Below are positions 1,339 through 17,270 of a DNA stretch of 24,174 nt, piece after piece. Both the position numbers and the translations under genes were made by a program. This DNA comes from a virus: the IMG/VR virus record IMGVR_UViG_3300021373_002195, positions 1 to 24,174 of that record; one strand, 5' to 3'. Numbering within the stretch: the first letter of the stretch is position 1; every line of letters starts with the position of its first letter. A model generated the notes under the pieces. It saw nothing but the letters and a program-made list of their open reading frames with translations. It did not search any database and was not told the DNA's origin.

Positions 1339-1740
1339 TTATTGAATTTCTGATAGCATTTCTAATTCAGAATCAGAATATAATAGGGATAAGTTTTTAA
1401 ATTCATCCGCAACCTTTTTATAAATTTTAAAAGCCTTGATTGAATCTTGGTCATAGCCGAATATATCGCAAAAATCTTCAAATGAACCTACGTCATTGCC
1501 TCCAAGACAAGCCAGAATTTGGTATTCAGTAGGCTTTTCCCCTCTTTTTGCCAATGATTGCCCAAAAGTAAACTTATATTCCCTATTTCGATGACGCAAT
1601 ATACGTTTTAATTTTATTTCGTATATGTCTCTCTTATACTTATCCCCATCAAAATAGTAATCATATTTGATATAATCCACATACATTCCACTTTCTGTCT
1701 GTGCTAGAAAACGCCTTGCTTGTTTATCGTATTCATTCAT
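1339..1740 (-). CDS. conserved phage early protein, unknown (133 aa)
   Basis: Begins MNEYDKQARRFLAQTESGMY. Key stretches are FDGDKYKRDIYEIKLKR, EYKFTFGQSLAKRGEKPTEY and FCDIFGYDQDSIKAFKIYK. I recognise this pattern (FGQS..., then ...YDVLACL..., then FCxxFGYDxDSxKA) as a small-protein family found in many unrelated phages, with no function I can name. An ATG 15 nt upstream (1755) would add MEFKK, but that ATG overlaps the GGAG ribosome site. The internal ATG at 1740 keeps the GGAG-N9-ATG spacing of the sister cassettes, so it is preferred. It has its own promoter at 1775-1803. Confidence 0.75.
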   Translation of the reverse strand: MNEYDKQARRFLAQTESGMYVDYIKYDYYFDGDKYKRDIYEIKLKRILRHRNREYKFTFGQSLAKRGEKPTEYQILACLGGNDVGSFEDFCDIFGYDQDSIKAFKIYKKVADEFKNLSLLYSDSELEMLSEIQ

Positions 1741-1774
1741 TTTTTTAAACTCCATTAATTTATTTGATAACTAT

Positions 1775-1803
1775 ATAATACCATTACGCTTTACACTTGT
1801 AAA
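1775..1803 (-). promoter_or_regulatory. early promoter cassette 1
   Basis: Minus strand: TTTACA (1803-1798), 17-bp spacer, TATTAT (1780-1775), then ATAGTTATCAAAT and GGAG. The -35 lies in a palindrome TTTACAAGTGTAAA (1790-1803), arms exact with a 2-nt centre, a likely operator. ATTAATAC precedes the -35 as in the other cassettes. Drives the 133- and 210-residue genes. Confidence 0.85.
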
Positions 1804-1851
1804 GTATTAATACATTGATTATTATGGATTCTTTTTTGCATTCCTTTTATT

Positions 1852-2019
1852 TTATAAATTATCGATGAAACCATAACTGAATTTAATTGCATTTAATTTA
1901 TTTTCAACGACCCCTTTGCACAAAGGCATTTCGCTTTCATTGGCAACTTTTAAGTGCCAAAATAAATCATTGATGTGCGTTTCTAGCTCCATCCATTTTT
2001 TTTCTTTTTCATTTGTCAT
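1852..2019 (-). CDS. small early protein, unknown (55 aa)
   Basis: Begins MTNEKEKKWMELETHINDLF: charged, helical-looking, no membrane segment, no family recognised. An ATG at 2034 would add MEKTK, but it lies on the GGAG ribosome site. The ATG at 2019 sits 9 nt after GGAG like the other cassette genes and gives a protein starting MTNE, the same first residues as the 71-residue gene at 2607-2822. It is transcribed alone from the promoter at 2053-2081; the next cassette starts only about 50 bases after its stop. Confidence 0.65.
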   Translation of the reverse strand: MTNEKEKKWMELETHINDLFWHLKVANESEMPLCKGVVENKLNAIKFSYGFIDNL

Positions 2020-2052
2020 TTTTGTTTTCTCCATTACTTATTTGATAACTAT

Positions 2053-2081
2053 ATAATAACAACTTAGTTTACACTTGTAAA
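2053..2081 (-). promoter_or_regulatory. early promoter cassette 2
   Basis: Minus strand: TTTACA (2081-2076), 17-bp spacer, TATTAT (2058-2053), ATAGTTATCAAAT after the -10. The palindrome TTTACAAGTGTAAA (2068-2081) covers the -35, identical to cassette 1. ATATATTAATAC precedes it. Confidence 0.85.
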
Positions 2082-2122
2082 GTATTAATATATTGATTAT
2101 TATTGATGCTTTTTTAAGTCCT

Positions 2123-2157
2123 AGTTATCCGGGAATCCCGGACAACTGATTTTTTTT
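2123..2157 (+). terminator. strong plus-strand intrinsic terminator
   Basis: AGTT (2123-2126)/AACT (2144-2147) encloses TCCGGGA (2128-2134)/TCCCGGA (2136-2142), with one A:C mismatch and a 3-nt loop once sterics are allowed. T8 begins at 2150. On the minus strand the hairpin has an A-run before it and no T-run after it, so it terminates rightward transcription, opposite to the surrounding genes. The T-run abuts the ancestral stop codon of the 111-residue gene. Confidence 0.65.
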
Positions 2158-2186
2158 AGTTAATAAATCCCATTGACCCGTTAACC

Positions 2187-2522
2187 TCAACAGCTATCGC
2201 GTCTTGCGTCATGTCTTTGCATAATTGCTTTGCATAATTGCTTTGCATAGTCTATTACTTGCATGATGTCGTTTGACGCTAGATTTTTTGCGTATGATTC
2301 AACGATTGTGACACTTTCCTGTACCAGTTTTCCATTTGATCCGTTCCAAGCTCCGACGGCTTCGTAACTTGTCGCACCACCGAATAGTTGCCCGAATAGC
2401 TTTAGAGTTCGTTCTACATGTTCTTTGTTGTCGATGGCCTCATTGATATTAACCGTTGACGGCACGTATAACCTAACCTTTTGACTTAGTGGAAATAATG
2501 ACCTTAATTCTTTATTATTCAT
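2187..2522 (-). CDS. early protein with shifted C-terminus (111 aa)
   Basis: Begins MNNKELRSLFPLSQKVRLYV and contains FGGATSYEAVGAW, then KLVQESVTIVESY. I recognise a family of small proteins (LFPLSQKVRLYVPSTxNVNE..., FGGATS..GxW, LVxExxTIVxxY) that usually end in a segment like MKQEAIALEINGxMYFI; the G-W-lvxE pattern is also reminiscent of DUF3574. Here the frame instead ends QRHDARRDSC. Two tandem 13-bp copies just before this point explain it: without one copy the frame continues TQDAIAVEVNGSMGFIN to a stop at 2156-2158, giving 117 aa and restoring the family ending. GGAG-N9-ATG start; private promoter at 2557-2585. The present product may be impaired or slippage-regulated. Confidence 0.8.
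   Translation of the reverse strand: MNNKELRSLFPLSQKVRLYVPSTVNINEAIDNKEHVERTLKLFGQLFGGATSYEAVGAWNGSNGKLVQESVTIVESYAKNLASNDIMQVIDYAKQLCKAIMQRHDARRDSC
2215..2240. repeat. 13-bp tandem duplication inside an early gene
   Basis: CTTTGCATAATTG occurs at 2215-2227 and 2228-2240, followed by a 9-nt partial copy (CTTTGCATA) at 2241-2249. Since 13 is not a multiple of 3, one copy more or less switches the reading frame of the gene at 2187-2522. Replication slippage is the simplest origin; a sequencing or assembly error must be excluded. Confidence 0.9.
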
Positions 2523-2556
2523 TTTTATTTACTCCGTTTATTTATTTGATATATCT

Positions 2557-2585
2557 ATAATACTATTTTAGTTGATACCTGTAAA
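2557..2585 (-). promoter_or_regulatory. early promoter cassette 3
   Basis: Minus strand: TTTACA (2585-2580), 17-bp spacer, TATTAT (2562-2557), then AGATATATCAAAT. The palindrome over the -35 is degenerate (TTTACAGGTATCAA), so repression may be weaker than at cassettes 1 and 2. Drives the 111-residue gene. Confidence 0.8.
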
Positions 2586-2606
2586 GTATTTATCTATCGA
2601 TCATTC

Positions 2607-2822
2607 TTAATGTTTGACTATCTCAAAATCATAAAACAGATTTTGTCCTTTATAATTTATCTTGATGGTGTTACGAGTGCCATAATATGATTTTTGTGTT
2701 AATTCCCATTGTACGTTTAATTTTTCTAAATATGTTTTCAATTGGCCGTATGTTGTGCAGTCAATAAGGTTATATAGCAACATTGGAGCGCTATCCGATA
2801 TAATTTTAGTTTCGTTTGTCAT
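2607..2822 (-). CDS. small early protein, unknown (71 aa)
   Basis: Begins MTNETKIISDSAPMLLYNLI and ends FYDFEIVKH. No membrane segment and no family recognised. An upstream in-frame ATG (2828) would add MK, but only 3 nt separate it from GGAG; the ATG at 2822 has the GGAG-N9 spacing seen in the sister cassettes and is preferred. It is the first gene leftward of the tandem RNA units and has its own promoter at 2857-2885. Confidence 0.65.
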   Translation of the reverse strand: MTNETKIISDSAPMLLYNLIDCTTYGQLKTYLEKLNVQWELTQKSYYGTRNTIKINYKGQNLFYDFEIVKH

Positions 2823-2856
2823 TTTCATTTACTCCGTTTATTCATTTGATAACTAT

Positions 2857-2885
2857 ATAATACCAGATTAGTTTATAGGTGTAAA
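2857..2885 (-). promoter_or_regulatory. early promoter cassette 4
   Basis: Minus strand: TTTACA (2885-2880), 17-bp spacer, TATTAT (2862-2857), then ATAGTTATCAAAT and GGAG. The -35 palindrome is partial (TTTACACCTATAAA). ATGCATTAATAC precedes the -35. Confidence 0.82.
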
Positions 2886-3002
2886 GTATTAATGCATTGA
2901 TTATTTTTGATGGGTTATTAATCTTTATTTACTAAAATCGATTTTTTTTCAAAGCCCTATACTTAACACATACAAAATAAAAACCCCTATAACATGACAA
3001 GT

Positions 3003-3088
3003 ATAAACCCCCCTAATTAGTTATAATGCGTGTACCCAAATTAAAAATCATGAAAGGATGCTGGGGTAGTTTTCGATTATAACTAACT
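3003..3088 (-). ncRNA. candidate small RNA, unit 2
   Basis: The segment just after the promoter at 3095-3123 begins AGTTAGTTA and contains no useful reading frame. AAAC-TA-CCCC (about 3072-3063) can pair with the GGGGGG-TTT run (3013-3005), enclosing a loop with AGCATCCTTTC and ending in TAACTAATTAG. Unit 1, 122 bp to the right, has the same order of conserved blocks but a different stem. The 3' end is uncertain: a second GGGG followed by TTTTTATTTT (2987-2974) could be the terminator instead. Confidence 0.4.
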
Positions 3089-3094
3089 ATAATA

Positions 3095-3123
3095 ATAGTA
3101 TAACGGCCTTATTGGATTGTCAA
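3095..3123 (-). promoter_or_regulatory. strong leftward promoter P2
   Basis: Minus strand: consensus TTGACA (3123-3118), 17-bp spacer, TACTAT (3100-3095), followed by TATTATAGTTAGTTA. TTTATAC precedes the -35. It shares ATCCAAT after the -35 with promoter P1. Expected start near 3088. Confidence 0.85.
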
Positions 3124-3126
3124 GTA

Positions 3127-3210
3127 TAAAGAGAGCATCTAATTAGTTAAGTCGTATTCATCTATCAATCGAGAAAGGAAGCGATGCTCTCAAAGGTGTA
3201 GTAACTAACT
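3127..3210 (-). ncRNA. candidate small RNA, unit 1
   Basis: The predicted transcript begins AGTTAGTTAC just after promoter P1. GAGAGCATC (3191-3183) pairs perfectly with GATGCTCTC (3139-3131), a 9-bp stem over a 43-nt loop, followed by TTTATAC. The loop holds a pyrimidine tract CTTCCTTTCTC resembling the anti-Shine-Dalgarno end of 16S rRNA. TTAGTTA at the 5' end can also pair with TAACTAA in the loop, giving an alternative fold or pseudoknot. There is no open frame longer than a few codons. Could instead be an operator array or untranslated leader. Confidence 0.45.
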
Positions 3211-3216
3211 ATTAGT

Positions 3217-3245
3217 ATAATAATTTAGCGGCATTGGATTGTCAA
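3217..3245 (-). promoter_or_regulatory. strong leftward promoter P1
   Basis: Minus strand: TTGACA (3245-3240), 17-bp spacer, TATTAT (3222-3217), then ACTAATAGTTAGTTA. TTTATACTTGACAATCCAA (18 shared bases plus one) is repeated exactly at P2, 122 bp to the left. Expected start near 3210. Confidence 0.85.
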
Positions 3246-3278
3246 GTATAAATTCAGAACGATTTATAATTATATCGG

Positions 3279-3308
3279 TTGACAAGTCTAATGTATAAAA
3301 TGTAATAT
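3279..3308 (+). promoter_or_regulatory. rightward promoter giving leaderless mRNA
   Basis: TTGACA (3279-3284), 18-bp spacer, TAATAT (3303-3308). Transcription should begin about 3314-3316, and the ATG of the next gene is at 3316. There is no Shine-Dalgarno in the preceding AT-rich sequence. The -35 flank (TTGACAAGT...TATAAA) resembles the leftward promoters' flank, so a shared regulator is possible. Confidence 0.7.
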
Positions 3309-3315
3309 TTAGTGT

Positions 3316-3789
3316 ATGCAAAAAATAATTCCATTAGAAGATTTTGATTTTGGCGTTAACTTAGAGAAAGATAAAGAGAAGTATGAGAAGTCTATGGGTG
3401 AGATAAAAAGGTATTTTTTGTCGTATTATGCGAAGAATCCTATGGTTGCTGAGGCGTGCAATGCTTCTGGATTATTAATTTCTCAGTTTAAAGATGCGTT
3501 ATATGATGATGAAAATTTTAGAAAAAAGTTTGAGCATTTGCAGGAGTTGCATTTAGATAAAGTTGAAAATCATGTTTTAAAGTTTATTAATATAGATCCT
3601 GTAATAGAGACGGAAGAAGGGTTCAGTGCTTCTCACCCTTTAGCGAGAGAGTCTTTAAAGGCGGCTGAGATACTTTTAAAGGCAAAAGCAAAGCATAGGG
3701 GTTATGGGGCATCAGATTTAAAGCAGGTCGAAGAAATTAAGGATAATAAGATAGAAATAATAGTTGTGAATAATGAAAGTAACAAGTAA
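3316..3789 (+). CDS. HTH protein, terminase-small-subunit-like (157 aa)
   Basis: Residues about 25-65 (YFLSYYAKNPMVAEACNASG, then ISQFKDALYDDENFRKKFEH) have the helix-turn-helix plus 'dpeF' pattern of many phage terminase small subunits. Residues about 95-125 (HPLARESLKAAEILLKAKA, then HRGYG) match the later part of that family, and the acidic C-terminus fits it too. The small terminase recognises phage DNA for packaging with the large subunit. However, no large subunit follows, the gene is alone on the plus strand with a ribbon-helix-helix gene, and it appears leaderless, as is lambda cI from PRM. It might therefore be a transcription regulator. No Shine-Dalgarno; overlaps the next gene by 17 nt. 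Confidence 0.6.
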   Translation: MQKIIPLEDFDFGVNLEKDKEKYEKSMGEIKRYFLSYYAKNPMVAEACNASGLLISQFKDALYDDENFRKKFEHLQELHLDKVENHVLKFINIDPVIETEEGFSASHPLARESLKAAEILLKAKAKHRGYGASDLKQVEEIKDNKIEIIVVNNESNK

Positions 3790-3931
3790 TAAACAAAAAA
3801 GTATAATAAATTTAACTCTTCCGGCTCATTTGCATCGGACATTTAAAATAATGTGTATAAAGCATGGGTATACCATGACCGATATTCTTCAACAGATGGT
3901 AAAGAATTTTGTTAAAGACCATAGAAAATAG
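3773..3931 (+). CDS. ribbon-helix-helix DNA-binding protein (52 aa)
   Basis: MKVTSNKQKSIINLTLPAHL followed by HRTFKIMCIKHGYTMTDILQ and QMVKNFVKDHRK. This is the layout of Arc/CopG/ParG-type ribbon-helix-helix proteins: a basic flexible N-terminus, a short strand (SIINLTLP) that inserts into the DNA major groove as a dimer, and two helices with the turn at KHGYTMT. Such proteins usually repress their own operon or act as partition adaptors (ParG). It begins inside the end of the upstream gene (translational coupling) and 3 nt separate its stop from the next ATG. The repeated CTAATTAG/TAACTAA motifs upstream of 3279 are natural candidate operators, by inference only. Confidence 0.75.
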   Translation: MKVTSNKQKSIINLTLPAHLHRTFKIMCIKHGYTMTDILQQMVKNFVKDHRK

Positions 3932-4136: not shown

Positions 4137-4153
4137 AAAGATCCATCATCTTT
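4137..4153. terminator. short hairpin between convergent operons
   Basis: AAAGAT (4137-4142)/ATCTTT (4148-4153) with a 5-nt loop lies between the plus operon end (4123) and the late operon end (4152). The stem is weak and neither flank has an ideal T-run, though the minus strand reaches ATTTTTTT about 20 nt later. Possible bidirectional terminator. Confidence 0.3.
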
Positions 4154-4373
4154 AGCTTACAAAAATACAAAATATAAGTATTGATAGCATTTGCAAAGAT
4201 ATTAATACAATAATTAATATGTAAAATTTTTGTATTATTATATCTATATTTTTCCATCTATTACTTGTTAATGTATTAATATTGTATAGTTTAGTGTTAA
4301 TTTCTTTATTTTCGTTTGTTAAACTTTGTAAATTTTCTTTTAGCTCTATAATTAAAGCATCTTCTGATCGCAT
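4152..4373 (-). CDS. XhlA-like coiled-coil membrane protein (73 aa)
   Basis: Residues about 5-45 form a charged heptad-like helix (IELKENLQSLTNENKEINTK), and residues about 48-72 are a single C-terminal transmembrane segment (FYILIIVLISLQMLSILIFC). This order, coiled coil then membrane anchor, is that of the XhlA hemolysin/holin accessory family, and it closes a lysis block. It overlaps the end of the holin-like gene by 68 nt in another frame. The ribosome site is weak (GGGAC). A spanin component or superinfection protein is possible. Confidence 0.55.
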   Translation of the reverse strand: MRSEDALIIELKENLQSLTNENKEINTKLYNINTLTSNRWKNIDIIIQKFYILIIVLISLQMLSILIFCIFVS

Positions 4374-4548
4374 AAGTTGTCCCTAAATTTATTATTTGTG
4401 CATAAATTACTATTTCCAATGATGTTGCAATTTTTATACCACGATATTTATATGCGAATATCATTAAAATAGCATTTGTTGCATTATCTTTTGCAAAAAC
4501 TGCAATAGTTTCTAATATGCTTTCTTTTTTACTTTGACCTTTTAGCAT
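4306..4548 (-). CDS. holin-like small membrane protein (80 aa)
   Basis: Two moderately hydrophobic segments (about residues 24-36 and 40-58) are separated by a short polar turn, followed by a very basic C-terminal tail (RRCFNYRAKRKFTKFNKRK). This is the usual holin charge pattern. Holins form inner-membrane lesions that release the endolysin. The start overlaps the upstream hydrolase gene by 20 nt (MLKGQSKKES lies inside its last codons), and its tail overlaps the XhlA-like gene, so translation is likely coupled. The family cannot be named from sequence alone. Confidence 0.55.
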   Translation of the reverse strand: MLKGQSKKESILETIAVFAKDNATNAILMIFAYKYRGIKIATSLEIVIYAQIINLGTTYAIRRCFNYRAKRKFTKFNKRK

Positions 4549-4990
4549 TTAACCCTAGACATATCATACGAACATCTTTTGGGCTTAAATTTGTTTTTAA
4601 ATAACGCTTGTTTATTCCATAAGCGTGTTTTAGTATAGGTAAAAACAATTCAGAACAAAAATATTTATTTGAATCATGCACTTTATAACCGAAAAACCCA
4701 AAAAGTACACCAAAAAAATCATATTTTTTGCCAAGCATTGACTCAAATTCATCAACAACTTTTGTTGTAATATGATAATCTAGGTCAAGTTCTATTGTAT
4801 AGGCAATGTCATTTCTTGGATTAATAAATTGATTAACCCCATTAAAAAATTCTGACTCATAATAAACTCTATCTATTTCAAAGCTGACATGATAATAAGC
4901 ATCATTTGAAAATATTTTAATTATGCTTGTCGTGTATTTCAATGGATTCCACCATTTGTATTCTTTTTTGTGAAAATGTACTTTTATCAT
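4529..4990 (-). CDS. permuted papain-like hydrolase, YiiX/C92 type (153 aa)
   Basis: His34 in YYHVSFEI, followed by YYESEFF (Glu45), and Cys112 in NKYFCSELF give the His-then-Cys order of circularly permuted NlpC/P60 (YaeF/YiiX, C92) enzymes. FFGVLFGFFGY lies between them as in the family. These enzymes cleave amide or thioester bonds, and in phages they are found near lysis or tail genes. It starts in an ATGA overlap with the upstream membrane protein and precedes the holin-like gene, so a second cell-wall or lipid-linked hydrolase for lysis is the natural reading. No signal peptide. An entry or host-modifying role is possible. Confidence 0.7.
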   Translation of the reverse strand: MIKVHFHKKEYKWWNPLKYTTSIIKIFSNDAYYHVSFEIDRVYYESEFFNGVNQFINPRNDIAYTIELDLDYHITTKVVDEFESMLGKKYDFFGVLFGFFGYKVHDSNKYFCSELFLPILKHAYGINKRYLKTNLSPKDVRMICLGLNAKRSK

Positions 4991-5253
4991 TTATCTATTT
5001 CTAATTTGCCAGCTATTTTATATAATATTTTTGTAATTTCTTTTAATTCTCTGTCATGGCTTTCTATTGTTTTGCTAATTTCTTCAATTTGCAATTCTGT
5101 TAACTTTTTTAGTTCTAAATTATTTTTCTCAAATAATTTTATTCTATACAAATTGTATATAGCAATAACATAAAAAGAAATTTGCGTTAGAATTATTAAA
5201 GATTCTAAACTTTTTATATCTTGTAAAGTTGTTAAAAATTCTAGCCATGCCAT
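4987..5253 (-). CDS. membrane-anchored coiled-coil protein, spanin-like (88 aa)
   Basis: A hydrophobic segment at about residues 18-38 (ESLIILTQISFYVIAIYNLY) is followed by a long charged helix (about 40-85: ELKKLTELQIEEISKTIESH). N-terminal anchor plus periplasmic coiled coil is the layout of inner-membrane spanins, which help disrupt the outer membrane of Gram-negative hosts. No nested or following outer-membrane spanin lipoprotein was seen, so a holin or antiholin remains possible. It begins 5 nt after the M15 peptidase gene with no clear ribosome site and ends in an ATGA overlap with the next gene. Confidence 0.55.
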   Translation of the reverse strand: MAWLEFLTTLQDIKSLESLIILTQISFYVIAIYNLYRIKLFEKNNLELKKLTELQIEEISKTIESHDRELKEITKILYKIAGKLEIDK

Positions 5254-5258
5254 TATAT

Positions 5259-5693
5259 TTAAATTATATTTAAATTTTGTTCAAAAGTCCATTGACAAGA
5301 AATGTGTAAGTGTTTTTTATTTTTTTCTTTTTTTAGTGTTGTTATATGTGAATCTTTGTAAAAAGAATTGTAATTATTTATAATATCTTCTTTTATTTCT
5401 TCTGGTGATAACCCTTTAATTTTTATATCAAGGGCTAAACCCTGCTTATGAGGTGACATAAAAGACCCTATTTTGCAAAATGGAGGACGATATCCGCTAT
5501 AATTGTAATAATACTCATTTTCAATGTAATTATGCCAATTATTGATTATAACTTTAGCATTAAATCGATTATAAATCGCCTCTGCCATATTAATTATTGA
5601 TGGGTTTATGAAGCGAATACTTTTCTCTTTGTATCGTTTAAATATTTCTTTTGGAATAAAGTCTTGCAGTGCAAAATGTGGGCTAATTTCCAT
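5259..5693 (-). CDS. M15-family peptidase endolysin (144 aa)
   Basis: The zinc-site motif SPHKQGLALD (residues 80-89, His82 and Asp89) matches SxHxxGxAxD, and HLH at 128-130 supplies the later ligand. SGYRPP upstream also fits peptidase M15 and VanY-like carboxy- or endopeptidases that cut peptidoglycan stem peptides. The length is typical of a single-domain phage endolysin; no signal peptide, so a holin is needed for release, and two candidates follow in the same block. TAATG overlap with the preceding gene. Confidence 0.85.
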   Translation of the reverse strand: MEISPHFALQDFIPKEIFKRYKEKSIRFINPSIINMAEAIYNRFNAKVIINNWHNYIENEYYYNYSGYRPPFCKIGSFMSPHKQGLALDIKIKGLSPEEIKEDIINNYNSFYKDSHITTLKKEKNKKHLHISCQWTFEQNLNII

Positions 5694-6073
5694 TATTTTG
5701 GTTTTGGGTATTTTTCTTTTACCTCTTTAATATGATCTTGCCATATTGTTGTACTATTTATTAAATCCCAGTATTGCATATCCTGTTGTTCCGCTAATGA
5801 TGCATAGCCGTCATCGGCATTGCATCGTGCATAGCAGTAATCGTACAATTTGTCGCTAGGATTAAAAAGTCTTTTCTTTTGAGTCGCATCGCTGCTATAC
5901 ATTACTTGGTTAATTTGTACATTACGCTCATAACTAGCTGCATTTTCTTCTCTGTACACTTCGTTTTCAAAACGTACACCATCATCATCGATATAGTATT
6001 TTTCGTTTGGCTCAAAATTTGTATCTGTTCGCTCACCAGTCATTACATCATTAATTTTATAGAATTTATACAT
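5693..6073 (-). CDS. fibre-associated small protein, possible chaperone (126 aa)
   Basis: Begins MYKFYKINDVMTGERTDTNF; acidic and tyrosine-rich, with QQDMQYWDLINSTTIWQDHI near the C-terminus. The aromatic MQYWDLIN motif resembles the end of small proteins encoded next to tail fibres. It directly follows the fibre gene (12 nt) with AAGGA 8 nt before ATG. Fibre-assembly chaperone or fibre-tip cap is inferred from position; no domain is recognised with certainty. Confidence 0.6.
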   Translation of the reverse strand: MYKFYKINDVMTGERTDTNFEPNEKYYIDDDGVRFENEVYREENAASYERNVQINQVMYSSDATQKKRLFNPSDKLYDYCYARCNADDGYASLAEQQDMQYWDLINSTTIWQDHIKEVKEKYPKPK

Positions 6074-6085
6074 TTTAATATCCTT

Positions 6086-7195
6086 TTATAATTTAGTTAC
6101 ATTTATTAATACTTGAGTATATATTTTAAGTATGAATTTACACGTAACAATTGATGAATTTGTTGCCTGTATAGTTAATACTCCACCGCCTGAATTAACT
6201 AAATTAATTGACATTCCATTTGTTGGTGTATAGATTTCCATTGTCTCAATGGCGTTAACAGATCCGGAATAACTTCTAATGCTATAAGTTCTCATTGCGC
6301 CTCTAGTAATGCCGGTAGATGTTGCAAATACTTCAATAAACCAGCTATGAAATCCTCCAGATGCGGATTGTAATTGTAAAACATTAGTTGTTGAGCTTAA
6401 TACATATTTAGAGTGATCATGAATATATAAATATTGATTAATTTTAGTACTTTCGCCAACAGTTATACGCTTAGTTATACCTGAACCTGAGTTCGTGTAT
6501 AGATTTAATTCGCCTACGCCGTTTCCTGTTGTGGCACCTTCAATTTTAGCGTAATTACCATCAATTGTCTCAAAATTAATTGATTGTGTTTCTGATGTGC
6601 CACCATTAGTATCTTTTAAATTTATATTAGGATTAGAATTTTCAATTTCTAAATTACGTGCCTGGTACTTGCTTTTAACATCTAAATTAATTCTGGTTGT
6701 TGATACCGCTACCCCTAATTCGACTTGATATGTTGCCGGTAATGTATTAGTAATACCACCACCTACACCTACATAATACGTGGTGCCAACGGTCAAAGCT
6801 GTAAAGGCATCGTAGAATCCATAGGCTATTGTTGCATTGTTGCCACTCGTTACTGCGTTTACATTTACACCTGCAACCGCTGTTATTCCTGCCTCAGTTG
6901 TATTATCTGCTTTAAATGCCTGTCCACCACTAATACGGACAATATCACCAGCGGATAGGTCTTCACCACAAGTTATGGTATATTCTTTTGACTCATCTGT
7001 TGCTATTTCAAGATATTCTAGCCATTCATAAATAGATTTAAATAAAAAATTTATTTCTTGATATGTTGGCTTTTCTGGAACGCCAGATGTTGCGGTGTAC
7101 CCTGTTGTTTTTCTTGTTACTGGCTCAACAACATTTGTTCCTATTGCCTCTGAACTTGCCCATTCTGGTAAATTTAGTGTTGGTTTAGTTGCCAT
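6086..7195 (-). CDS. tail fibre protein (369 aa)
   Basis: The N-terminus (residues 1-65: LNLPEWASS...NVVEPVTRKTTGY...YEWLEYLE) is the virion-attachment segment found at the start of many phage tail fibres. Residues about 70-175 form a beta-rich module (SAGDIVRISGG ... TVGTTYYVGVGGGI ... VELGVAVSTT) of the same kind as two modules in the 1744-residue fibre. The C-terminal half is glycine/serine/threonine-rich beta structure ending in a compact domain likely to bind the host surface. It follows the baseplate wedge genes as expected. AGGAG 7 nt before ATG. Confidence 0.85.
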   Translation of the reverse strand: MATKPTLNLPEWASSEAIGTNVVEPVTRKTTGYTATSGVPEKPTYQEINFLFKSIYEWLEYLEIATDESKEYTITCGEDLSAGDIVRISGGQAFKADNTTEAGITAVAGVNVNAVTSGNNATIAYGFYDAFTALTVGTTYYVGVGGGITNTLPATYQVELGVAVSTTRINLDVKSKYQARNLEIENSNPNINLKDTNGGTSETQSINFETIDGNYAKIEGATTGNGVGELNLYTNSGSGITKRITVGESTKINQYLYIHDHSKYVLSSTTNVLQLQSASGGFHSWFIEVFATSTGITRGAMRTYSIRSYSGSVNAIETMEIYTPTNGMSINLVNSGGGVLTIQATNSSIVTCKFILKIYTQVLINVTKL

Positions 7196-7206
7196 TTTTA
7201 TTCTCC

Positions 7207-7788
7207 TTAGTTAAATCCAAATAAATCATTCAAATATCCTCCTTGAGATGTATCAGTTAAGCTAGAAAACCCAAGTGCTTCGGAATCATTTTGAAATCCA
7301 AAATAATCAGTTTGAACGTTAATTAAATCAACGCTTACGCCTGTTGGCTTAGTGTTATTTATTGCCACAACAATATCACTTAATGGAATTAAAGGGCTAC
7401 TATTTATAGCATACATATTAATATGAGCTACAGATGGCTCAGATAAATTGATTGTATCTGCACTCATTAATATATTAAATATAGATAATAAGTCTTCAAT
7501 AGCTCCCTCTGAATTTAATTGTGTTATCTTATTATATATTAAGCCTCTGTATATTTCATCATTGTAGCCAAGGCGTAATTGATCTAATATTGTGCCAAAG
7601 TTGTCTAATTGTTGCCCCACACTATCTTTTAAAGATCGCTCGTTCAATAATTGAAAAAAAACTGTTTCTAATTCTTGAATTTGAGCGGTATATATCTTAA
7701 TTATTTCTTTTAAGTTTGAGCTGTCTGAATATTGTGTAATTAATCTAGTAAGAGCATCACTTTCATGAGTTGTTATTTCTGTAATCAT
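7207..7788 (-). CDS. baseplate wedge protein, DUF2612 family (193 aa)
   Basis: The ending FGFQNDSEALGFSSLTDT...GGYL and the helical start with LGYNDEIYRGLIYNKI match the DUF2612 phage wedge family. That family occupies the place of P2 gpI and forms the outer wedge where fibres attach. ATGA overlap with the J-like gene upstream; the fibre gene follows, consistent with this role. Length is normal for the family. Confidence 0.85.
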   Translation of the reverse strand: MITEITTHESDALTRLITQYSDSSNLKEIIKIYTAQIQELETVFFQLLNERSLKDSVGQQLDNFGTILDQLRLGYNDEIYRGLIYNKITQLNSEGAIEDLLSIFNILMSADTINLSEPSVAHINMYAINSSPLIPLSDIVVAINNTKPTGVSVDLINVQTDYFGFQNDSEALGFSSLTDTSQGGYLNDLFGFN

Positions 7789-8960
7789 GAATTAATTGTA
7801 ATCCTTGAGCTATCAAAAACAGCAATCTCAAAAACATTTATTGCGATATTGGTACTTGTAGTAGGGCTTGCACTTGTGCCTATAAATATTTCTATGCCAA
7901 TAACGCCTGAAACGTTATTAATTGGGGTATACAATTTATTTACAATGACATCATCACTAATATTTAAATTGGATGTGTAAGCTAATATTTCATTTTCAAT
8001 TTTAGTATCTCCATCGGTAGGATAAACGTCACCTTGTGATATGTCAGTGTTTTTAGTTATATTTACGATTAAATAAATATCTATTTCTGTTGATCGGCTA
8101 AAAGAAATGCTATGAGATTGTGCTTGTGAATCAAGAACTGTTTCAGTAATTGTTCCATAGGTTGAAATCCCTGCTGGCTTTGAATTAAATATAGACGATG
8201 CAATATCAGCATTTAATCCCCCTAAAACATAAACTTCAATACTTTTTGGCGGTCTCCCATTAGAATCAGTTGTTAATGTATTATTTTCAACAACTAAGGC
8301 ATTGGTAACATCGTCAACATTAGATATTAAATTATTTCTTATTCCCTCTATTGTTGCGGTTCCCGATCTTTGCAGTAAAAGTAATCTTCTAATTTTAAAA
8401 TCAGTATCAGTTTCAACATCTCGGCCTAATTCTGCATCTAATGCATTTGTAATGCTATCAATTCCACTTGTTGGAGTTTGTATTTCTGTTAATGTTCCTG
8501 AATAAGCAACTGTTTCACCTGTATTTGTAGCATACATTTCAACATCTACCGTTCCACCTGATCCAATAGTATATTCTTGTAATGTTTCAAATTCTGAACT
8601 TTCATTTCCATTAACATAAGCAATAAAGTTAGCTGGCACAATAGCATTTGCAGTGCCGGTAATTGTTGCTGTAACTTGTGACTTTGTAGCTTGTAACCTT
8701 GTTATATTATTAATACTTGCAATATTATCTAAAGAAGTTCCCTCTGCTGTATTAGGATATTGTGAATTATATATTGCTTCTGATAATTCCCATAATAAAG
8801 AAATTCTTTCGTCTAATACGCCTTTTATTTGCCCTAATGGCGAATTTCCTTCTAAATTAATAGCATCACCAAAAGACGTTTTAAATTCGGCTTCTGTCTC
8901 TAATATAATATCAGATAAAGTTTTTGTATTAAGCCCTGTTGTTGTTATTCCAAATGTCAT
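7785..8960 (-). CDS. baseplate wedge protein, J/gp47-like (391 aa)
   Basis: Begins MTFGITTTGLNTKTLSDIIL, with the typical N-terminal segment (SFGDAINLEGNSPLGQIKGV), VPANFIAYVNGN and DTDFKIRRLLLLQRSGTATI, all hallmarks of Baseplate_J-like proteins (Mu gp47, T4 gp6, P2 gpJ). It dimerises in the wedge ring and couples baseplate opening to sheath contraction. It lies between gp25-like and DUF2612 genes in the canonical order. GAGG 8 nt before ATG. Confidence 0.92.
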   Translation of the reverse strand: MTFGITTTGLNTKTLSDIILETEAEFKTSFGDAINLEGNSPLGQIKGVLDERISLLWELSEAIYNSQYPNTAEGTSLDNIASINNITRLQATKSQVTATITGTANAIVPANFIAYVNGNESSEFETLQEYTIGSGGTVDVEMYATNTGETVAYSGTLTEIQTPTSGIDSITNALDAELGRDVETDTDFKIRRLLLLQRSGTATIEGIRNNLISNVDDVTNALVVENNTLTTDSNGRPPKSIEVYVLGGLNADIASSIFNSKPAGISTYGTITETVLDSQAQSHSISFSRSTEIDIYLIVNITKNTDISQGDVYPTDGDTKIENEILAYTSNLNISDDVIVNKLYTPINNVSGVIGIEIFIGTSASPTTSTNIAINVFEIAVFDSSRITINS

Positions 8961-8981
8961 TTTATTACCTCTATATTAACA

Positions 8982-9332
8982 TTAAATAATAGAAATATCA
9001 TTTAAAACAATATCTCCTTTTTCGCTTTGTACTTTTACACTAACTATTATTGATCTACTATTTTTATATTCTAAATTAAATTCCAATACGTTTAAAACGC
9101 CATTGGTATTTATAATAGCATTAAGTAATACTGTTTCAATTGTATTTAAATTAAAATTTTTAATAAAAATATCAGCAAAATATGCAACCCCAATAGTTTG
9201 ATTTAAAAACCATTCACCTAAAAAAGTTTTTATGTTAATGACAATGTTTTGTGATGTTTCTTCAATGCCTGTTATTGTGCTTAAATTGTTGTTTTCAAAA
9301 TATAAATCGCTGTTTATTAATTCTAAGTCCAC
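8982..9332 (-). CDS. baseplate wedge protein, gpW/gp25-like (116 aa)
   Basis: Small protein with NIVINIKTFLGEWFLNQTIG (residues about 28-47), the GEWFLN...G(V/I) core of the gpW/gp25 family, and a mixed alpha/beta end. In contractile systems it links the sheath start to the wedges. The start is GTG in a TAGTG overlap with the preceding gene; no earlier ATG exists in frame. Normal length for the family. Confidence 0.88.
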   Translation of the reverse strand: MDLELINSDLYFENNNLSTITGIEETSQNIVINIKTFLGEWFLNQTIGVAYFADIFIKNFNLNTIETVLLNAIINTNGVLNVLEFNLEYKNSRSIIVSVKVQSEKGDIVLNDISII

Positions 9333-9550
9333 TATGATATTGTTCCTGTTCCAGGCCCAGATGGTGTGCTAACTGTAATTACCCCATAAGTTTTAATGTG
9401 ATCTATTATTGCTCCTGCATAGGCTTCTGCCATAGCATCTTTTTGAGCAGATGTCATTGATGCCCCCTCTGGATTGTTTGCAATGTCATCTAAAACAGTT
9501 TGTATTGCTGAATTTATTTGACTGCCAAGTAGTGTTGCGTTTAATGCCAT
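9332..9550 (-). CDS. small baseplate/spike-associated protein (72 aa)
   Basis: Begins MALNATLLGSQINSAIQTVL and continues to AGAIIDHIKTYGVITVSTPS, ending in a glycine/proline/threonine tail. Similar short proteins, sometimes as tandem repeats of the AGAIIDHIKxxGxVTV segment, occur next to spike genes in phages of this type. GGAGG lies 5 nt upstream of ATG, the best ribosome site in the operon, suggesting high output. Whether it is structural is not known; a spike-tip or baseplate role is inferred from position. Confidence 0.65.
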   Translation of the reverse strand: MALNATLLGSQINSAIQTVLDDIANNPEGASMTSAQKDAMAEAYAGAIIDHIKTYGVITVSTPSGPGTGTIS

Positions 9551-9559
9551 GATATCCTC

Positions 9560-10186
9560 CTATATTTTTAAATTACTAAATTTTGTTGCTAAAGATGTAA
9601 ATGTTGATACATTTGTTGGTGCTTGTGGCCCAATTTGCGTATTTGTTAATATTTGACTACATGCAGTTGCAAGTTGATTGCATAAATCGACCAATTCATC
9701 ACTCGTTCCTTTAATTTCAACACTTCCGTTTGATAATCTTATTTGTGAATTGCCATTTTTAATCATTAAATGATCTGAATCTGCTTCTAAACCACTTCCA
9801 TTATATTTTAAGGTTGGATAAGCTACCGCATCTGATAGATCAAATTTTCTTATGTCGTCTGGAAAAACAAGTCCTCCACTTTTACGCCACTTATCAATAC
9901 TTCTTTCATTAAAAATTAATTGTACTGAATCACCCTTTTGTAAAGGAAAGCTAAAAATAGCATTTTCAGATTGATAGTATGCAATAGGAACATTATTAAT
10001 TCTTTGTATCGTTTCAATCTCACCTGTAATCCTTTTTCTTTTAATGGCTGGAATAACATCTACTGTTTTATTTTGAGCGTTATACGCTTCAACAATAGCA
10101 GGAATACTGGTATGAATATTAACAAGTTTTGCATCAATTAATTGGTTTATTGTTTCGCCTAGTGTTGGCGTGTATCTAACTGTCAT
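9560..10186 (-). CDS. baseplate spike, gp138 N-terminal-domain type (208 aa)
   Basis: Residues about 20-125 (VNIHTSIPAIVEAYNAQNKT..., PIAYYQSENAIFSFPLQKGD, VQLIFNERSIDKWRKSG) match the OB-fold domain of phi92 gp138, the short membrane-piercing spike. IRLSNGSVEIKG later in the protein is the start of the beta-helical needle, and the needle is short here. The spike sits under the hub and is driven through the outer membrane. The start overlaps the hub gene by 11 nt with AAGGAA upstream. Confidence 0.88.
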   Translation of the reverse strand: MTVRYTPTLGETINQLIDAKLVNIHTSIPAIVEAYNAQNKTVDVIPAIKRKRITGEIETIQRINNVPIAYYQSENAIFSFPLQKGDSVQLIFNERSIDKWRKSGGLVFPDDIRKFDLSDAVAYPTLKYNGSGLEADSDHLMIKNGNSQIRLSNGSVEIKGTSDELVDLCNQLATACSQILTNTQIGPQAPTNVSTFTSLATKFSNLKI

Positions 10187-11021
10187 TTGAAATTCCTTCG
10201 CACTTCATAACCCATTGACCATCAAATGAATCTCCACTATAAGTAACTCTTTCCATTTTATAAAAAGAATTTGTATCTGTTAATGAATCTTCTATTTTTA
10301 TTAGTTTTGTTGGAGTTACTGCTGAATTAATTAAAGCCGTAAATTCTATTTTTTTATCTTTTTTTATTTTTAATTCTAATAACCCTGTATCCTCATTAAA
10401 AACATAAACTGATTCATTTTCATTAATTGATTGATCTGGTGAATAAATTGTAAATTCATTATTTTGAATTGACCATTCAAGCCCTTCTGTTTTTATTAAA
10501 TTATCAATTATTTCTTTAGTTCTACCTGATACTGAAATATCTGAGGCAACGTTAACTTTCTTATTGTTATCTATATGAGAAAGCGATAAGTCATTATATG
10601 ATATATCTAAATCTTTTATTAATAATTTTAATAATTCTTTTAGGTTTTTATTTTTTACAAATGTTCTGTTTGTAAATTTTTCTGTTAAATTAAAGTTTCC
10701 ATCCCCTGCTTCAATGTGTGTTACAATGTCTGCTTTCTGCCTAGTTGTATATGAATGTGTAATATCTCCACTAAATAATAATTGTAAAGGCTGAGTTGAT
10801 AATTGCCCTACATAGCCACACTTTAGTATTATTTTTGCATTATTTTCTTGAAATCTTTTATATACTTCTTTTTGCAAGTTATATATTTTTATGACTGCTG
10901 TATTTGATTCTGATGCACTTGTTTTTACAATATCAAAATTAATTCGATTATCTTGTACAATATAATTAGTATCATTAACTAATATTTGAAGTTGATAAGC
11001 TCTTAAATACTGTACTGTCAT
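10176..11021 (-). CDS. baseplate hub protein, gp27/gpD-like (281 aa)
   Basis: Begins MTVQYLRAYQLQILVNDTNY, with NTAVIKIYNLQKEVYKRFQE and ILKCGYVGQ... early, patterns of hub proteins whose first domain is tube-like, and GLEWSIQNNEFTIYSPDQS and KIEDSLTDTNSFYKMERVTY later. It forms the trimer between tube and spike. The plug gene precedes and the spike gene follows, as in Pam3-like baseplates. TAATG overlap at the start. Confidence 0.85.
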   Translation of the reverse strand: MTVQYLRAYQLQILVNDTNYIVQDNRINFDIVKTSASESNTAVIKIYNLQKEVYKRFQENNAKIILKCGYVGQLSTQPLQLLFSGDITHSYTTRQKADIVTHIEAGDGNFNLTEKFTNRTFVKNKNLKELLKLLIKDLDISYNDLSLSHIDNNKKVNVASDISVSGRTKEIIDNLIKTEGLEWSIQNNEFTIYSPDQSINENESVYVFNEDTGLLELKIKKDKKIEFTALINSAVTPTKLIKIEDSLTDTNSFYKMERVTYSGDSFDGQWVMKCEGISNDS

Positions 11022-11344
11022 TATGCAGCTTCATTATACATTAAAATTACTCTTGTTCCCAAATCGTCAATTTCTGCATCTTTATTTTCATTTTCCATAT
11101 CAATACAAAACAAATCTCCTTGAGGAATATTTAAATGATAATAATTTTTTAATAGGGGCATATTTGTTATCATTAAAATGCCATAAACAATTATTTCTTC
11201 TGATGTTGTAAGTATATTTATAAACCATTTATTTAATCTGTAATTAAATTTAAATTCAAAAATATATGCAATTCCATCCAAAGTCGTTGTCTGCTTTATC
11301 TTTTTATTGTCTATTGTATTTATTGGGATCTTTATTACTGCCAT
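11021..11344 (-). CDS. baseplate plug protein, Pam3 gp18-like (107 aa)
   Basis: Compact beta protein: IPINTIDNKKIKQTTTLDGI, then YRLNKWFINILTTS, PLLKNYYHLNIPQGDLFCID and EIDDLGTRVILMYNEA. The order D/G-Y-x-F, N-x-W-F and DDLG-x-V-L-Y at the end matches the plug family described for the Pam3 baseplate, which blocks the tube above the hub. It overlaps the Dit-like gene by 10 nt and ends in a TAATG overlap with the hub gene. Confidence 0.82.
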   Translation of the reverse strand: MAVIKIPINTIDNKKIKQTTTLDGIAYIFEFKFNYRLNKWFINILTTSEEIIVYGILMITNMPLLKNYYHLNIPQGDLFCIDMENENKDAEIDDLGTRVILMYNEAA

Positions 11345-12033
11345 ATTGAAATTGCCGAACTTATTCCTTTTGATAATATTGATTGGCTTACATTTTTTTG
11401 ATTATCATCTGGGGTTTCAATATTTTCTTTTCCATTATTAATTTTCGATTGCCCTGAATGTTTTATATTTTCAGCAAATTGACTAGGGTCTATTTTTTCA
11501 GTTTTAGTTGTCACAATTTTTACTTGTTTTACAGTCATTGTAAAATTTATACTTTGTAATGTACTGCTATTTTCTTTAAAATTTAAACTTTGAATAATAA
11601 CGTTATCATAAAGTTCTAATCCTGTTCTAACTTTAAATAATATTTTATTTTTATAAAGCTCATTTAATAAAAGATATCTTTGATTTTTTTTTGTATTATT
11701 ATTTGTAACGTTATTAATAATTCCACTTAATTGTGGAACAATTGCGGATACTAATTGATTTTTAGTTATTCCATATATTGCTGATTGAAATGCTGTTGTT
11801 TTTAATGTATCAATAATATTGCTTGATAAATTAGAAATAACACATTCTAAAGTTATTGTAGGATTTACATTAACCACATGATCTGTAATATTTATTCCTG
11901 ATTGTATAGGGTATGAAGTAATTGTATTTTCTTTTTGATGACTAATATTAGTAGTTGAGTCAATTTCTAAAATAATTGCATCTCCAATTAATAAACTTAC
12001 TTTTTCTTTATTTAATATGTTTAAAAAACTCAT
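11335..12033 (-). CDS. Dit-like baseplate/tube-initiator protein (232 aa)
   Basis: Begins MSFLNILNKEKVSLLIGDAI. The central part (TSYPIQSGINITDHVVNVNP TITLECVIS as two adjoining pieces) is the 'phi-x-P-I ... I-T-D-H-V ... P-x-I-x-L' signature of Dit-like N-terminal domains in myophages, followed by LNFKENSSTLQSINFTMTVK. Dit proteins start tube assembly around the hub. The last ~55 residues are polar and probably flexible. ATGA overlap with the tape measure gene. Confidence 0.78.
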   Translation of the reverse strand: MSFLNILNKEKVSLLIGDAIILEIDSTTNISHQKENTITSYPIQSGINITDHVVNVNPTITLECVISNLSSNIIDTLKTTAFQSAIYGITKNQLVSAIVPQLSGIINNVTNNNTKKNQRYLLLNELYKNKILFKVRTGLELYDNVIIQSLNFKENSSTLQSINFTMTVKQVKIVTTKTEKIDPSQFAENIKHSGQSKINNGKENIETPDDNQKNVSQSILSKGISSAISIWQ

Positions 12034-13529
12034 TGTGAGTAGGCACCTACATTACTTGTGCTTGTAACATTTAAAAAAGTATCAAATACATCTGAAACAT
12101 AATTTTTTACACTATTAGCTATATTATTGGCATCAGATCCTTCTGGAACAGTAACGTTAATGTTTGCAGTTACGTTATTATTATTGGGATTATTGGGATT
12201 ATTGAATCTGTTAACCATAGAATATGGGTTTGCACGATAAGCATTTGAAATATTATTTAAAGCTATATTCCTAGTTTCTTGTTTTTTTTCTTTGAATTTT
12301 TTAAAATCGCTAACTCCTTTATTAAAACTATCAATAATTTTTTGGAAAGGAATTAAAGTTTTCCCACCTTCTTTAAAAACTCTGAACTCGTCAGCAATTA
12401 ATAAAATACTTCCTGCAATAAGTCCTAAAAGTGCATTTATTTTAGACAAGGACGAAATAAATCCAGTCAGTTTTAATCCTGTCATAAATTTTTTTATTTT
12501 AGATAAAGATGAAATCAGCTTTAATCCTGTCATAAATTTTAAAGCAGTTCCTATTGCATTAAGTCCTGAAACAATTAATCTTGCTCCAAGTAAAAAGGAT
12601 AGTATTCTTAACGTGTTTTCTAGTCCTCCCAGCAAATCAACCAATGGCCTGACCATAAAATACAACGTTTTAAATGCCTGAATTAATATCTTTGCAGAAT
12701 CCCCCAATGCTCTAAAAAACTTAACTAAATTCTCTTTTATTAGTTTTTCATTTACTGTTACAAATTCTATTGCCTCTTTGACCATTTGTTTTGCTTCCGG
12801 TAAAAACTCTTGGCCAACTTCTTTAATTAATAAACGTATTCTGTTCATTAAAATAATTGTTGAGCCACCCAATGTGCCTGACATTTTTTGTAAAAGTTTT
12901 CCAAACTTACCTTCTGGTCCAGCCATTTTTTCTAATGAAGCATAAAATTTATCGAAAGTAACGCCTCTTTGAGATATCATTTTTTCTAACTTTTCACGAT
13001 CTCCACCTGTGTAATCCTCCGCTAATTGTTTCATAATTGGAATATTTAAGTTAATTAACTGCCTTTTTTCTTCTGCGCCCAAAGCTCCTTTAGATTGTAT
13101 ATCTGAAACAGCTTTTAAAAATCTCAGTGTTGTTTGAGAATCAGCCCCAAAAGCAGTTGAAACCGCAGACACTTTTTCTAACATGTCAATTAATGGAATA
13201 CCTTCAAATTGAAACGCTAATATTTGTTTCGAAGCGGATAAAACGTCGTTTAGGTGCATAGGAGTTTTTTTAGCAAACTCTAAAATGTCTTTCATGTTTT
13301 TCTTTGCTTCTTCTGAAGAATCTGCGAAGGCTTGCATTGCAATTTCTGTTTTCTCTAACGAATCCCCTTCTCTTGCAAGTCCAACAAATGCGGTTGCAAT
13401 GCTTGTTATAGCAAGTGATGCATAGCCTGCACTTCTTTTTACAGATAACATTCTATTATCTAAACGATTTAGCTTTCCAAAATCTACATTGAATCCCCAT
13501 GATGTAACAAGTTTTCTAACGGTTGCCAC
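12030..13529 (-). CDS. tape measure protein (499 aa)
   Basis: Residues about 25-240 carry the conserved tape-measure N-terminal domain (EFAKKTPMHLNDVLSASKQI, GALGAEEKRQLINLNIPIMK, YTGGDREKLEKMISQRGVTF). Hydrophobic helices follow at about 295-385, including an internal duplication (FMTGLKLISSLSKIK / FMTGLKLTGFISSLSKI), then a polar Asn/Pro-rich linker (NNPNNPNNNN). It fixes tail length; by the usual ~0.15 nm per residue rule the tail would be about 75 nm. Start is GTG with AGAGG 7 nt upstream, overlapping the end of the frameshifted chaperone by 14 nt. Confidence 0.88.
   Translation of the reverse strand: MATVRKLVTSWGFNVDFGKLNRLDNRMLSVKRSAGYASLAITSIATAFVGLAREGDSLEKTEIAMQAFADSSEEAKKNMKDILEFAKKTPMHLNDVLSASKQILAFQFEGIPLIDMLEKVSAVSTAFGADSQTTLRFLKAVSDIQSKGALGAEEKRQLINLNIPIMKQLAEDYTGGDREKLEKMISQRGVTFDKFYASLEKMAGPEGKFGKLLQKMSGTLGGSTIILMNRIRLLIKEVGQEFLPEAKQMVKEAIEFVTVNEKLIKENLVKFFRALGDSAKILIQAFKTLYFMVRPLVDLLGGLENTLRILSFLLGARLIVSGLNAIGTALKFMTGLKLISSLSKIKKFMTGLKLTGFISSLSKINALLGLIAGSILLIADEFRVFKEGGKTLIPFQKIIDSFNKGVSDFKKFKEKKQETRNIALNNISNAYRANPYSMVNRFNNPNNPNNNNVTANINVTVPEGSDANNIANSVKNYVSDVFDTFLNVTSTSNVGAYSQ
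12436..12540. repeat. imperfect tandem duplication in tape measure gene
   Basis: Plus-strand TTTATTTTAGA(C/T)AA(G/A)GA(C/T)GAAAT ... TTTTAATCCTGTCATAAATTTT occurs twice in succession, the second copy shorter by about 9 bases. The copies stay in frame and duplicate about 16-19 residues of a hydrophobic helix region of the tape measure. Confidence 0.8.
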
Positions 13530-14138
13530 GATTAGCCTCTTTCATTGCTTTTTCTTCATAATAACATTTTAAGTCTAATGCTTCGTGAGCATCTGCTAAG
13601 TCCATTAAATTCCACGATTGCAAAATTTCTTGCCTTGTAGCGATCTTTTCTATGACTGGTCTCCATTGATACCAATCGACTTGGAATTTTTGCTCATGCC
13701 CATTCCCTCCGTTTGCAGGTAAGCGAAACCGCTTTGGGCTTGTGTTAAAAAATCTTCGTAATTATATTTTATTGTTTGGATAACTACTTGAAACATTAAA
13801 CCTAATTTCCCTTGAAATTCATTATCAACATTTATCTTAATACGATTTCCTGTTGATTCGTCTATTCTTTTAACTGTCGATAGTAATGTTTTAATTGTAT
13901 CCCATGTCTCGGCTTCATCTAATCGAGTAGATAAAGCCTCACATGCTTTTCCTATTAATGCCATGTCAATTTCTTGATCTATGCTATTAAGGGAATTGAG
14001 TGATTCCCCTATGGTTCCACTAACAATTTTAGTAAGTCTCGTTAATATCTTGAGAGCTGTCGGTACTGGAAGTGTGAGCATACAATATTTATAGCTTTGG
14101 TTGTTTGCTTCTACCTCGAAATCTATTTCATTAATCAT
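13516..14138 (-). CDS. tail assembly chaperone, -1 frameshift product (207 aa)
   Basis: The -1 frame is open from the 3' part of the short chaperone to a stop at 13516-13518 and encodes FQVDWYQWRPVIEKIATRQE, ILQSWNLMDLADAHEALDLK and a charged tail. This is the conserved extension seen in long tail chaperones of related myophages (QVDWYxWRPVIEK..., SW.. DLADAxEALDL). It has no start codon of its own, so it must be reached by slippage, most plausibly at CAAAAAT (13692-13686), 12 nt after GGAGGGA (13710-13704). As in lambda G/GT, the long form would link tube and tape measure during assembly. Exact slip codon uncertain. Confidence 0.8.
13650..14138 (-). CDS. tail assembly chaperone, short form (162 aa)
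   Basis: Begins MINEIDFEVEANNQSYKYCM; helical, with GKLGLMFQVVIQTIKYNYED FLTQAQSGF near the end, typical of the gp14-like chaperone encoded between tube and tape measure. It binds tube or tape measure during tail assembly and is absent from the virion. The unshifted frame ends 12 residues after the slip site (SKSIGINGDQS). It starts 5 nt after the tube gene stop, ribosome site weak (AAGGCGG). Confidence 0.82.
   Translation of the reverse strand: MINEIDFEVEANNQSYKYCMLTLPVPTALKILTRLTKIVSGTIGESLNSLNSIDQEIDMALIGKACEALSTRLDEAETWDTIKTLLSTVKRIDESTGNRIKINVDNEFQGKLGLMFQVVIQTIKYNYEDFLTQAQSGFAYLQTEGMGMSKNSKSIGINGDQS
13686..13710 (-). promoter_or_regulatory. programmed -1 frameshift signal
   Basis: Minus strand: Shine-Dalgarno-like GGAGGGA (13710-13704), 12 nt, then C-AAA-AAT (13692-13686) where the zero frame decodes Lys-Asn and the -1 frame continues TTC CAA. 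The internal ribosome-binding sequence followed at 10-14 nt by an A-run is the arrangement of E. coli dnaX. The heptamer is not a perfect X-XXY-YYZ. Confidence 0.7.
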
Positions 14139-14143
14139 ATTAT

Positions 14144-14557: not shown

Positions 14558-14566
14558 GTTTAACTC

Positions 14567-16162: not shown

Positions 16163-16194
16163 TTTTTTACTCCTATATATAGTCTTATTATTAT

Positions 16195-16223
16195 ATTATA
16201 CATTTTTTTTTTATTATTATGAA
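16195..16223 (-). promoter_or_regulatory. possible internal late promoter before sheath
   Basis: Minus strand: TTCATA (16223-16218), 17-bp spacer rich in A, TATAAT (16200-16195). This 54-nt gap is one of the few in the late operon. The -35 matches consensus at 4 of 6 positions, and AT-richness makes chance matches common. Confidence 0.35.
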
Positions 16224-17014: not shown

Positions 17015-17020
17015 ATTTTG

Positions 17021-17257: not shown

Positions 17258-17270
17258 TTTTTATTTCTCC

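Follow-up and report, generated by a model that had tools for sequence, protein, structure and literature searches.

The window, by which we mean the whole stretch of DNA analyzed, is the 24,174 bp IMG/VR viral contig IMGVR_UViG_3300021373_002195. Its GC content is 31.5%, and its genes are those of a sheathed tailed phage; the baseplate, sheath and neck genes are carried by the minus strand. Small leftward genes are grouped at 690–2828. Between them and a terminase small subunit-like (TerS-like) gene lies a non-coding gap that accommodates two tandem units, each composed of a leftward promoter copy and, behind it, ~80 nt of structured non-coding sequence. As anatomy, this tandem arrangement of promoter-plus-structured-RNA units in the early control region has good support. 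The flanking genes and the two promoters are as follows.

3316–3789, plus strand: TerS-like gene, adjoining the units
3773–3931, plus strand: gene of a ribbon-helix-helix (Arc-like/ParG-like) protein, candidate repressor of the operator-like sites described below
3217–3245, minus strand: unit 1 promoter, TTGACA (3245–3240), 17 nt, TATTAT (3222–3217), 11/12
3095–3123, minus strand: unit 2 promoter, TTGACA (3123–3118), 17 nt, TACTAT (3100–3095), 10/12

Both promoters were already described, as near-consensus and 122 bp apart, in a previous sequence-only reading of this DNA, and that description holds. They are contained in a 51-nt direct repeat of the minus strand, the copies of which are 122 bp apart and 76% identical, with the first 20 nt identical between the units. 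A third copy, at 3007, is truncated (only the first 13 nt of the repeat) and has no good -10 box. The two promoters belong to the leftward promoter family of the phage, ATAC-TT(G/T)ACA-17-TA(T/C)TAT, which is common to all six leftward promoters, both units included. Like a phage small regulatory RNA gene, each unit is therefore provided with its own predicted near-consensus promoter, of the phage's own family. The next gene had also been said to have its own promoter, and predicted promoters are indeed found both for the leftward gene 2607–2828 and for the TerS-like gene (TTGACA-18-TAATAT at 3279–3308, plus strand).

The predicted RNAs contain two stems each, S1 and S2, with the following elements.

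3131–3211, minus strand: unit 1 predicted RNA, +1 at about 3210, arm order S1a-S2a-S1b-S2b
3211–3202 and 3149–3140, minus strand: unit 1 S1, UAGUUAGUUA/UAACUAAUUA
3191–3183 and 3139–3131, minus strand: unit 1 S2, GAGAGCAUC/GAUGCUCUC
3173–3188, minus strand: unit 1 conserved motif AGCATC(GCTT)CCTTTC, candidate seed whose CCTTTC is mostly unpaired when S2 forms
3007–3089, minus strand: unit 2 predicted RNA, +1 at about 3088
3089–3076 and 3027–3014, minus strand: unit 2 S1, UAGUUAGUUAUAAU/AUUAUAACUAAUUA
3068–3064 and 3037–3033, minus strand: unit 2 inner helix, UACCC/GGGUA
3067–3063 and 3011–3007, minus strand: unit 2 possible S2, ACCCC/GGGGU
3052–3062, minus strand: unit 2 conserved motif AGCATCCTTTC, candidate seed that the predicted fold leaves unpaired

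The shared blocks behave as had been proposed: AGTTAGTTA occurs at 3210 and 3088, TAACTAATTAG at 3149 and 3023, and neither is present anywhere else in the record. In both units AGTTAGTTA begins at the predicted +1, 7 nt past the -10 box, and is complementary to the shared block TAACTAATTA/TAACTAATT, which gives S1. The pairing of AGTTAGTTA with TAACTAATT, and hence the interleaving of the stems, was overlooked in the earlier description. The arms follow the order a-b-a'-b' in both units, S1 being interleaved with S2, which is the arm order of an H-type pseudoknot. The loops L1/L2/L3 measure 10/33/1 nt in unit 1 and 8/35/3 nt in unit 2; with such a short L3 the classic coaxial arrangement does not fit, which makes alternative hairpins as likely as a pseudoknot. 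The interleaved arms are predicted to give one or the other, a pseudoknot or a pair of competing hairpins. Outside the promoters, the blocks identical in the two diverged RNA parts are the two S1 arms and AGCATC.

For unit 1, S2 is predicted to form (-15 to -17 kcal/mol), S1 being weaker by about 7 kcal/mol. When the RNA was folded at growing transcript length, S1 was obtained at 68–77 nt, with S2 taking over at 79 nt. At the DNA level this S2 is a solid 9-bp stem, GAGAGCATC/GATGCTCTC (3191–3183/3139–3131). The minimum-energy structure of unit 2 consists of a 13-bp S1, AGUUAGUUAUAAU/AUUAUAACUAAUU, and the inner UACCC/GGGUA helix, and the CCCC/GGGG pairing is absent from it. The probability of the unit 2 S2 is 0.8% for a random 9-mer, but 15% of the shuffles of the C-rich inner segment reach its pairing. 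The proposal that the arms diverge between the units and yet stay complementary within each of them is consequently strong for unit 1, with its 9-bp stem, and weak for unit 2, where CCCC/GGGG lies outside the predicted fold. The AGCATC..CCTTTC motif, taken previously for a 5' arm, is no arm in unit 2, where it is unpaired. AGCAUC is kept in unit 2 though its partner from unit 1, GAUGCU, is gone, suggesting that it does more than pair in a stem.

The interleaved-stem score of either unit was matched by none of 400 dinucleotide shuffles. When the whole record was scanned, the two best scores on the minus strand were those of unit 1 (-29.8) and unit 2 (-28.4), and one interleaved pair inside a coding region had -28.2 on both strands. 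Among 172 promoter-like sites in non-coding gaps (57 loci), the units again take ranks 1 and 2. S1 includes one G-U pair on the transcribed strand, where the other strand would give an A-C mismatch, and the plus-strand interleaved-stem scores are lower than the minus-strand ones in both units. The nested folding energy alone is ordinary, within the shuffle range, with z of -1.8 for unit 1 and -1.0 for unit 2. The case for selected stem pairing, as suggested before, is stronger than had been claimed for the shared S1 and for S2 of unit 1, and weak for CCCC/GGGG of unit 2, given the 15% of shuffles; with just two paralogues, covariation can hardly be tested. Inside the RNA parts there is no frame of 20 codons, in agreement with the reported absence of a coding frame, and the few ORFs of 22–38 aa overlap only their edges or the promoter side. 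Small peptides from the units were rejected, as by reading of the sequence these frames have no ribosome-binding sites; so was a plus-strand transcript, for which the units offer no plus-strand -35 by the same kind of reading and lower-scoring stems.

The -35 boxes of the units are covered by a 14-bp palindrome-like element, TTTACACTTGTAAA, searched for with up to three mismatches allowed.

3239–3252, minus strand: operator-like site TTTATACTTGACAA, over the -35 of unit 1
3117–3130, minus strand: operator-like site TTTATACTTGACAA, over the -35 of unit 2
2994–3007, minus strand: third operator-like site TTTATACTTGTCAT, at the beginning of the truncated third unit
3279–3292, minus strand: operator-like site ATTAGACTTGTCAA, covering the -35 box of the TerS-like gene's rightward promoter
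2872–2885, minus strand: operator-like site and -35 of the promoter of gene 2607–2828
2572–2585, 2068–2081 and 1790–1803: same operator-like element, over -35 boxes of early promoters

The record contains 11 such sites, 8 of them within the ~1.6 kb control region (1700–3320) and 3 elsewhere. Shuffles of 1700–3320 have 0.57 sites on average and at most 3, and the enrichment owes part to the -35 hexamer itself and to the duplication of the unit. All 8 control-region sites cover -35 boxes, except for the 3007 site at the truncated third unit, and the perfect palindrome TTTACA-AG-TGTAAA is found within two of the six leftward promoters. Judging by their sequence and placement, the 14-bp sites are probably the operator regulon of the phage, and the simplest reading would be that one repressor controls both units along with the early genes and TerS, the obvious candidate for it being the Arc-like protein. 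The placement of the units at a regulatory switch, an earlier suggestion, is thereby strengthened: the palindrome-like site lies over the -35 of the units and of the early and TerS promoters, and the Arc-like gene is nearby.

None of the Rfam covariance models, c4 antisense RNA included, matches the window at gathering score, and with E up to 5 the unit region gives two chance-level matches only (E 1.9 and 3.5, far below gathering). DNA patterns of the promoter and of the whole unit have no match in 2.9 million viral contigs, and blastn of the units finds no homologue among phages and plasmids. Single-protein scans with TerS, early-gene and baseplate proteins gave only one distant TerS, with no close TerS or early-gene relatives. 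Relatives at 53–65% baseplate identity were obtained from a scan of baseplate alignments. A covariance search with a two-unit model, which had been proposed as a check, yields no further member among the relatives examined. In two relatives, L006 and L008, the late genes are likewise followed by TerS and then by the Arc-like gene. Of the relatives, L006 alone continues beyond this last gene, L008 stopping within it or just after it. L009 and L010 carry other genes at that place, and L065 was discarded as an unrelated record with a DNA polymerase gene.

Beside the Arc-like gene of L006 there is a stem-rich stretch of ~480 bp (9738–10223) with no long frame. It contains an interleaved pair, GTGCCTTC/GAAGGCAC with TGGGT/ACCCA, and a promoter-like site (9809–9837) followed by GAAGCCTTG/CAAGGCTTC with a weaker overlapping AACAGAA/TTCTGTT. 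The 9-bp stem just past the promoter-like site has z of -3.1 (1 of 200 shuffles being as stable), and the promoter-anchored site ranks only eighth among 172. The stem region occupies the same place as the units, with unrelated sequences, and the comparison speaks for a position of structured RNA in this group of phages. A DNA methyltransferase gene (L006 7608–8921) follows TerS in L006 and is absent there in the window. A hairpin, CAGTTGTCCGG..CCGGATAACTG, is kept near early genes in both phages (window 2120–2170, L006 10157–10183), with a T-run after it on the plus strand of the window and on the minus strand of L006; from its sequence it may be either a shared terminator or a binding site.

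The small regulatory RNAs of phages are of similar length, with 68/69 nt for sar (P22), 77 nt for OOP (lambda) and 77 nt for c4 (P1/P7) (PMC12197685). The units resemble them in the predicted size of ~80 nt, the location in a phage regulatory region and the Arc-like repressor gene near them. P22 likewise pairs Arc with the sar/ant region. In contrast to sar, OOP and c4, the units have interleaved stems, have no antirepressor target that could be found, are not antisense to an annotated gene and match no described Rfam family; the features specific to each of these three families are not found in them. The RNA antitoxins of type III toxin-antitoxin systems (ToxI/CptI/TenpI) are repeated H-type pseudoknots, with ToxI repeats of 36 nt and a CptI pseudoknot of 45 nt (PMC4627078). 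The units share with them the repetition and a pseudoknot-capable arm order, but each has its own promoter and about 80 nt, and the loop lengths are not those of the classic H-type. No toxin of the ToxN/CptN/TenpN type was found near the units, as eight neighboring proteins and one from L006 gave no match of note in a defense library; a more distant toxin may exist, the record being only 24 kb long. The CI RNA immunity of P4 offers a further parallel, in that complementary segments recur in an early leader region and the units might pair with each other (AGCAUC/GAUGCU); unlike P4, the units have two separate promoters.

Taken together, we consider two repressor-controlled early small-RNA genes to be the most likely interpretation, with a probability of roughly 45%. 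On this reading, a small-RNA gene would have been duplicated within the early control region of a sheathed tailed phage, and a sigma-70 promoter of the phage's early family, with the repressor operator on top, would give an RNA of ~80 nt starting from the conserved AGUUAGUUA. S1 (AGUUAGUUA/UAACUAAUU) would pair first during transcription; once the 3' end emerges, S2 would replace S1 in unit 1, while in unit 2 it may add to S1 as a pseudoknot. The fold would expose the conserved, largely unpaired AGCAUC..CCUUUC segment, the CCUUUC seed of which might pair with Shine-Dalgarno-like GAAAGG of host or phage mRNAs in early infection or induction. We infer transcription, discrete ends and the role of the Arc-like protein as repressor, and regard seed and targets as speculative. 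The best duplexes between the units and the 34 gene starts of the phage are no better than those of shuffled sequence, and an exact AGAAAGGAA match at the start of a 1744-aa gene (22521, minus strand), considered as a target, is within chance.

No intrinsic terminator was found 3' of either unit, so that the transcripts may simply read on, and a cis-acting leader is the main rival, unlikely on balance but realistic. Both promoters would then drive one leftward early transcript into gene 2607–2828 and beyond, and the S1/S2 hairpins would act in its 5' leader, on stability, pausing or attenuation. The units are on the same strand as the early genes, no terminator separates them from gene 2607–2828, and S1 and S2 of unit 1 are mutually exclusive and predicted to swap at about 79 nt, all of which would suit such a leader. 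However, each of four early genes within reach has a promoter of its own from the leftward family, S2 lacks the downstream U-run typical of a terminator, and one attenuator needs no two repeated leaders in series. The region might also act as DNA, with AGTTAGTTA and CTAATTAGTTA as protein-binding half sites in alternating orientation, together with TTTATACTTG(A/T)CA sites, and the RNA pairing as a by-product. The half-site centers (3206, 3145, 3084 and 3019) are about 61–65 bp apart, and this near-even spacing, the exact conservation of the sites and the clear operator-like sites in the same region are in line with such a control array. We regard it as quite unlikely, since it leaves the 9-bp S2 stem of unit 1 unexplained, the wobble position and the higher score favor the transcribed strand, and the rest of the control region shows no enrichment of the TAATTAGTTA motif.

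If only the promoters had been duplicated, as tandem early promoters, the transcribed part would be neutral and its structure accidental. Conservation does peak in the 20 nt around the -35, the nested folding energies stay inside the shuffle range, and the sequence is kept in no relative, but the conserved non-promoter blocks coincide with the S1 arms and AGCATC, and the units hold the top two of 172 ranks, which renders this explanation improbable. A packaging site (cos/pac) beside terS, in which the repeats would be bound by terminase, would account for the adjoining TerS-like gene and for the repetition of the sites; it is nevertheless extremely improbable, because the elements are near-consensus promoters present also at early genes far from terS, and in L006 and L008 the gap from the TerS-like to the diverging Arc-like gene is short and has no such repeats.

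As two early small-RNA genes, the preferred interpretation, the locus is probably a new member of the broad kind of phage regulatory RNA, its regulatory function being putative. A narrower version, which we hold to be doubtful, is that of a paralogous, repressor-controlled early RNA pair of a new fold class, with interleaved stems anchored at the 5' end and fast-diverging stems around a fixed loop motif, the function being kept with unrelated sequence in the syntenic relative; it would allow either a pseudoknot or a co-transcriptional switch from S1 to S2. If transcribed, the units would yield two orphan small RNAs of a phage, discovered from sequence alone in a group that has no close database relatives, and a testable case of tandem paralogous RNAs, with stems that diverge while pairing is kept and with a repressor site shared with the early genes. 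The 8 operator-like sites and the neighboring Arc-like protein offer a testable model of early control in the group.

In respect to the gene order of the record, the TerS-like gene is on the strand opposite to every late gene (4152–24052) and at the end farthest from the head-tail connector genes, and this opposite orientation recurs in L006 and L008. The 1744-aa gene (17271–22505, minus strand) is situated between connector-type genes and sheath-side tail genes, an unusual position for a large repetitive fiber-like protein, and parts of it match L008.
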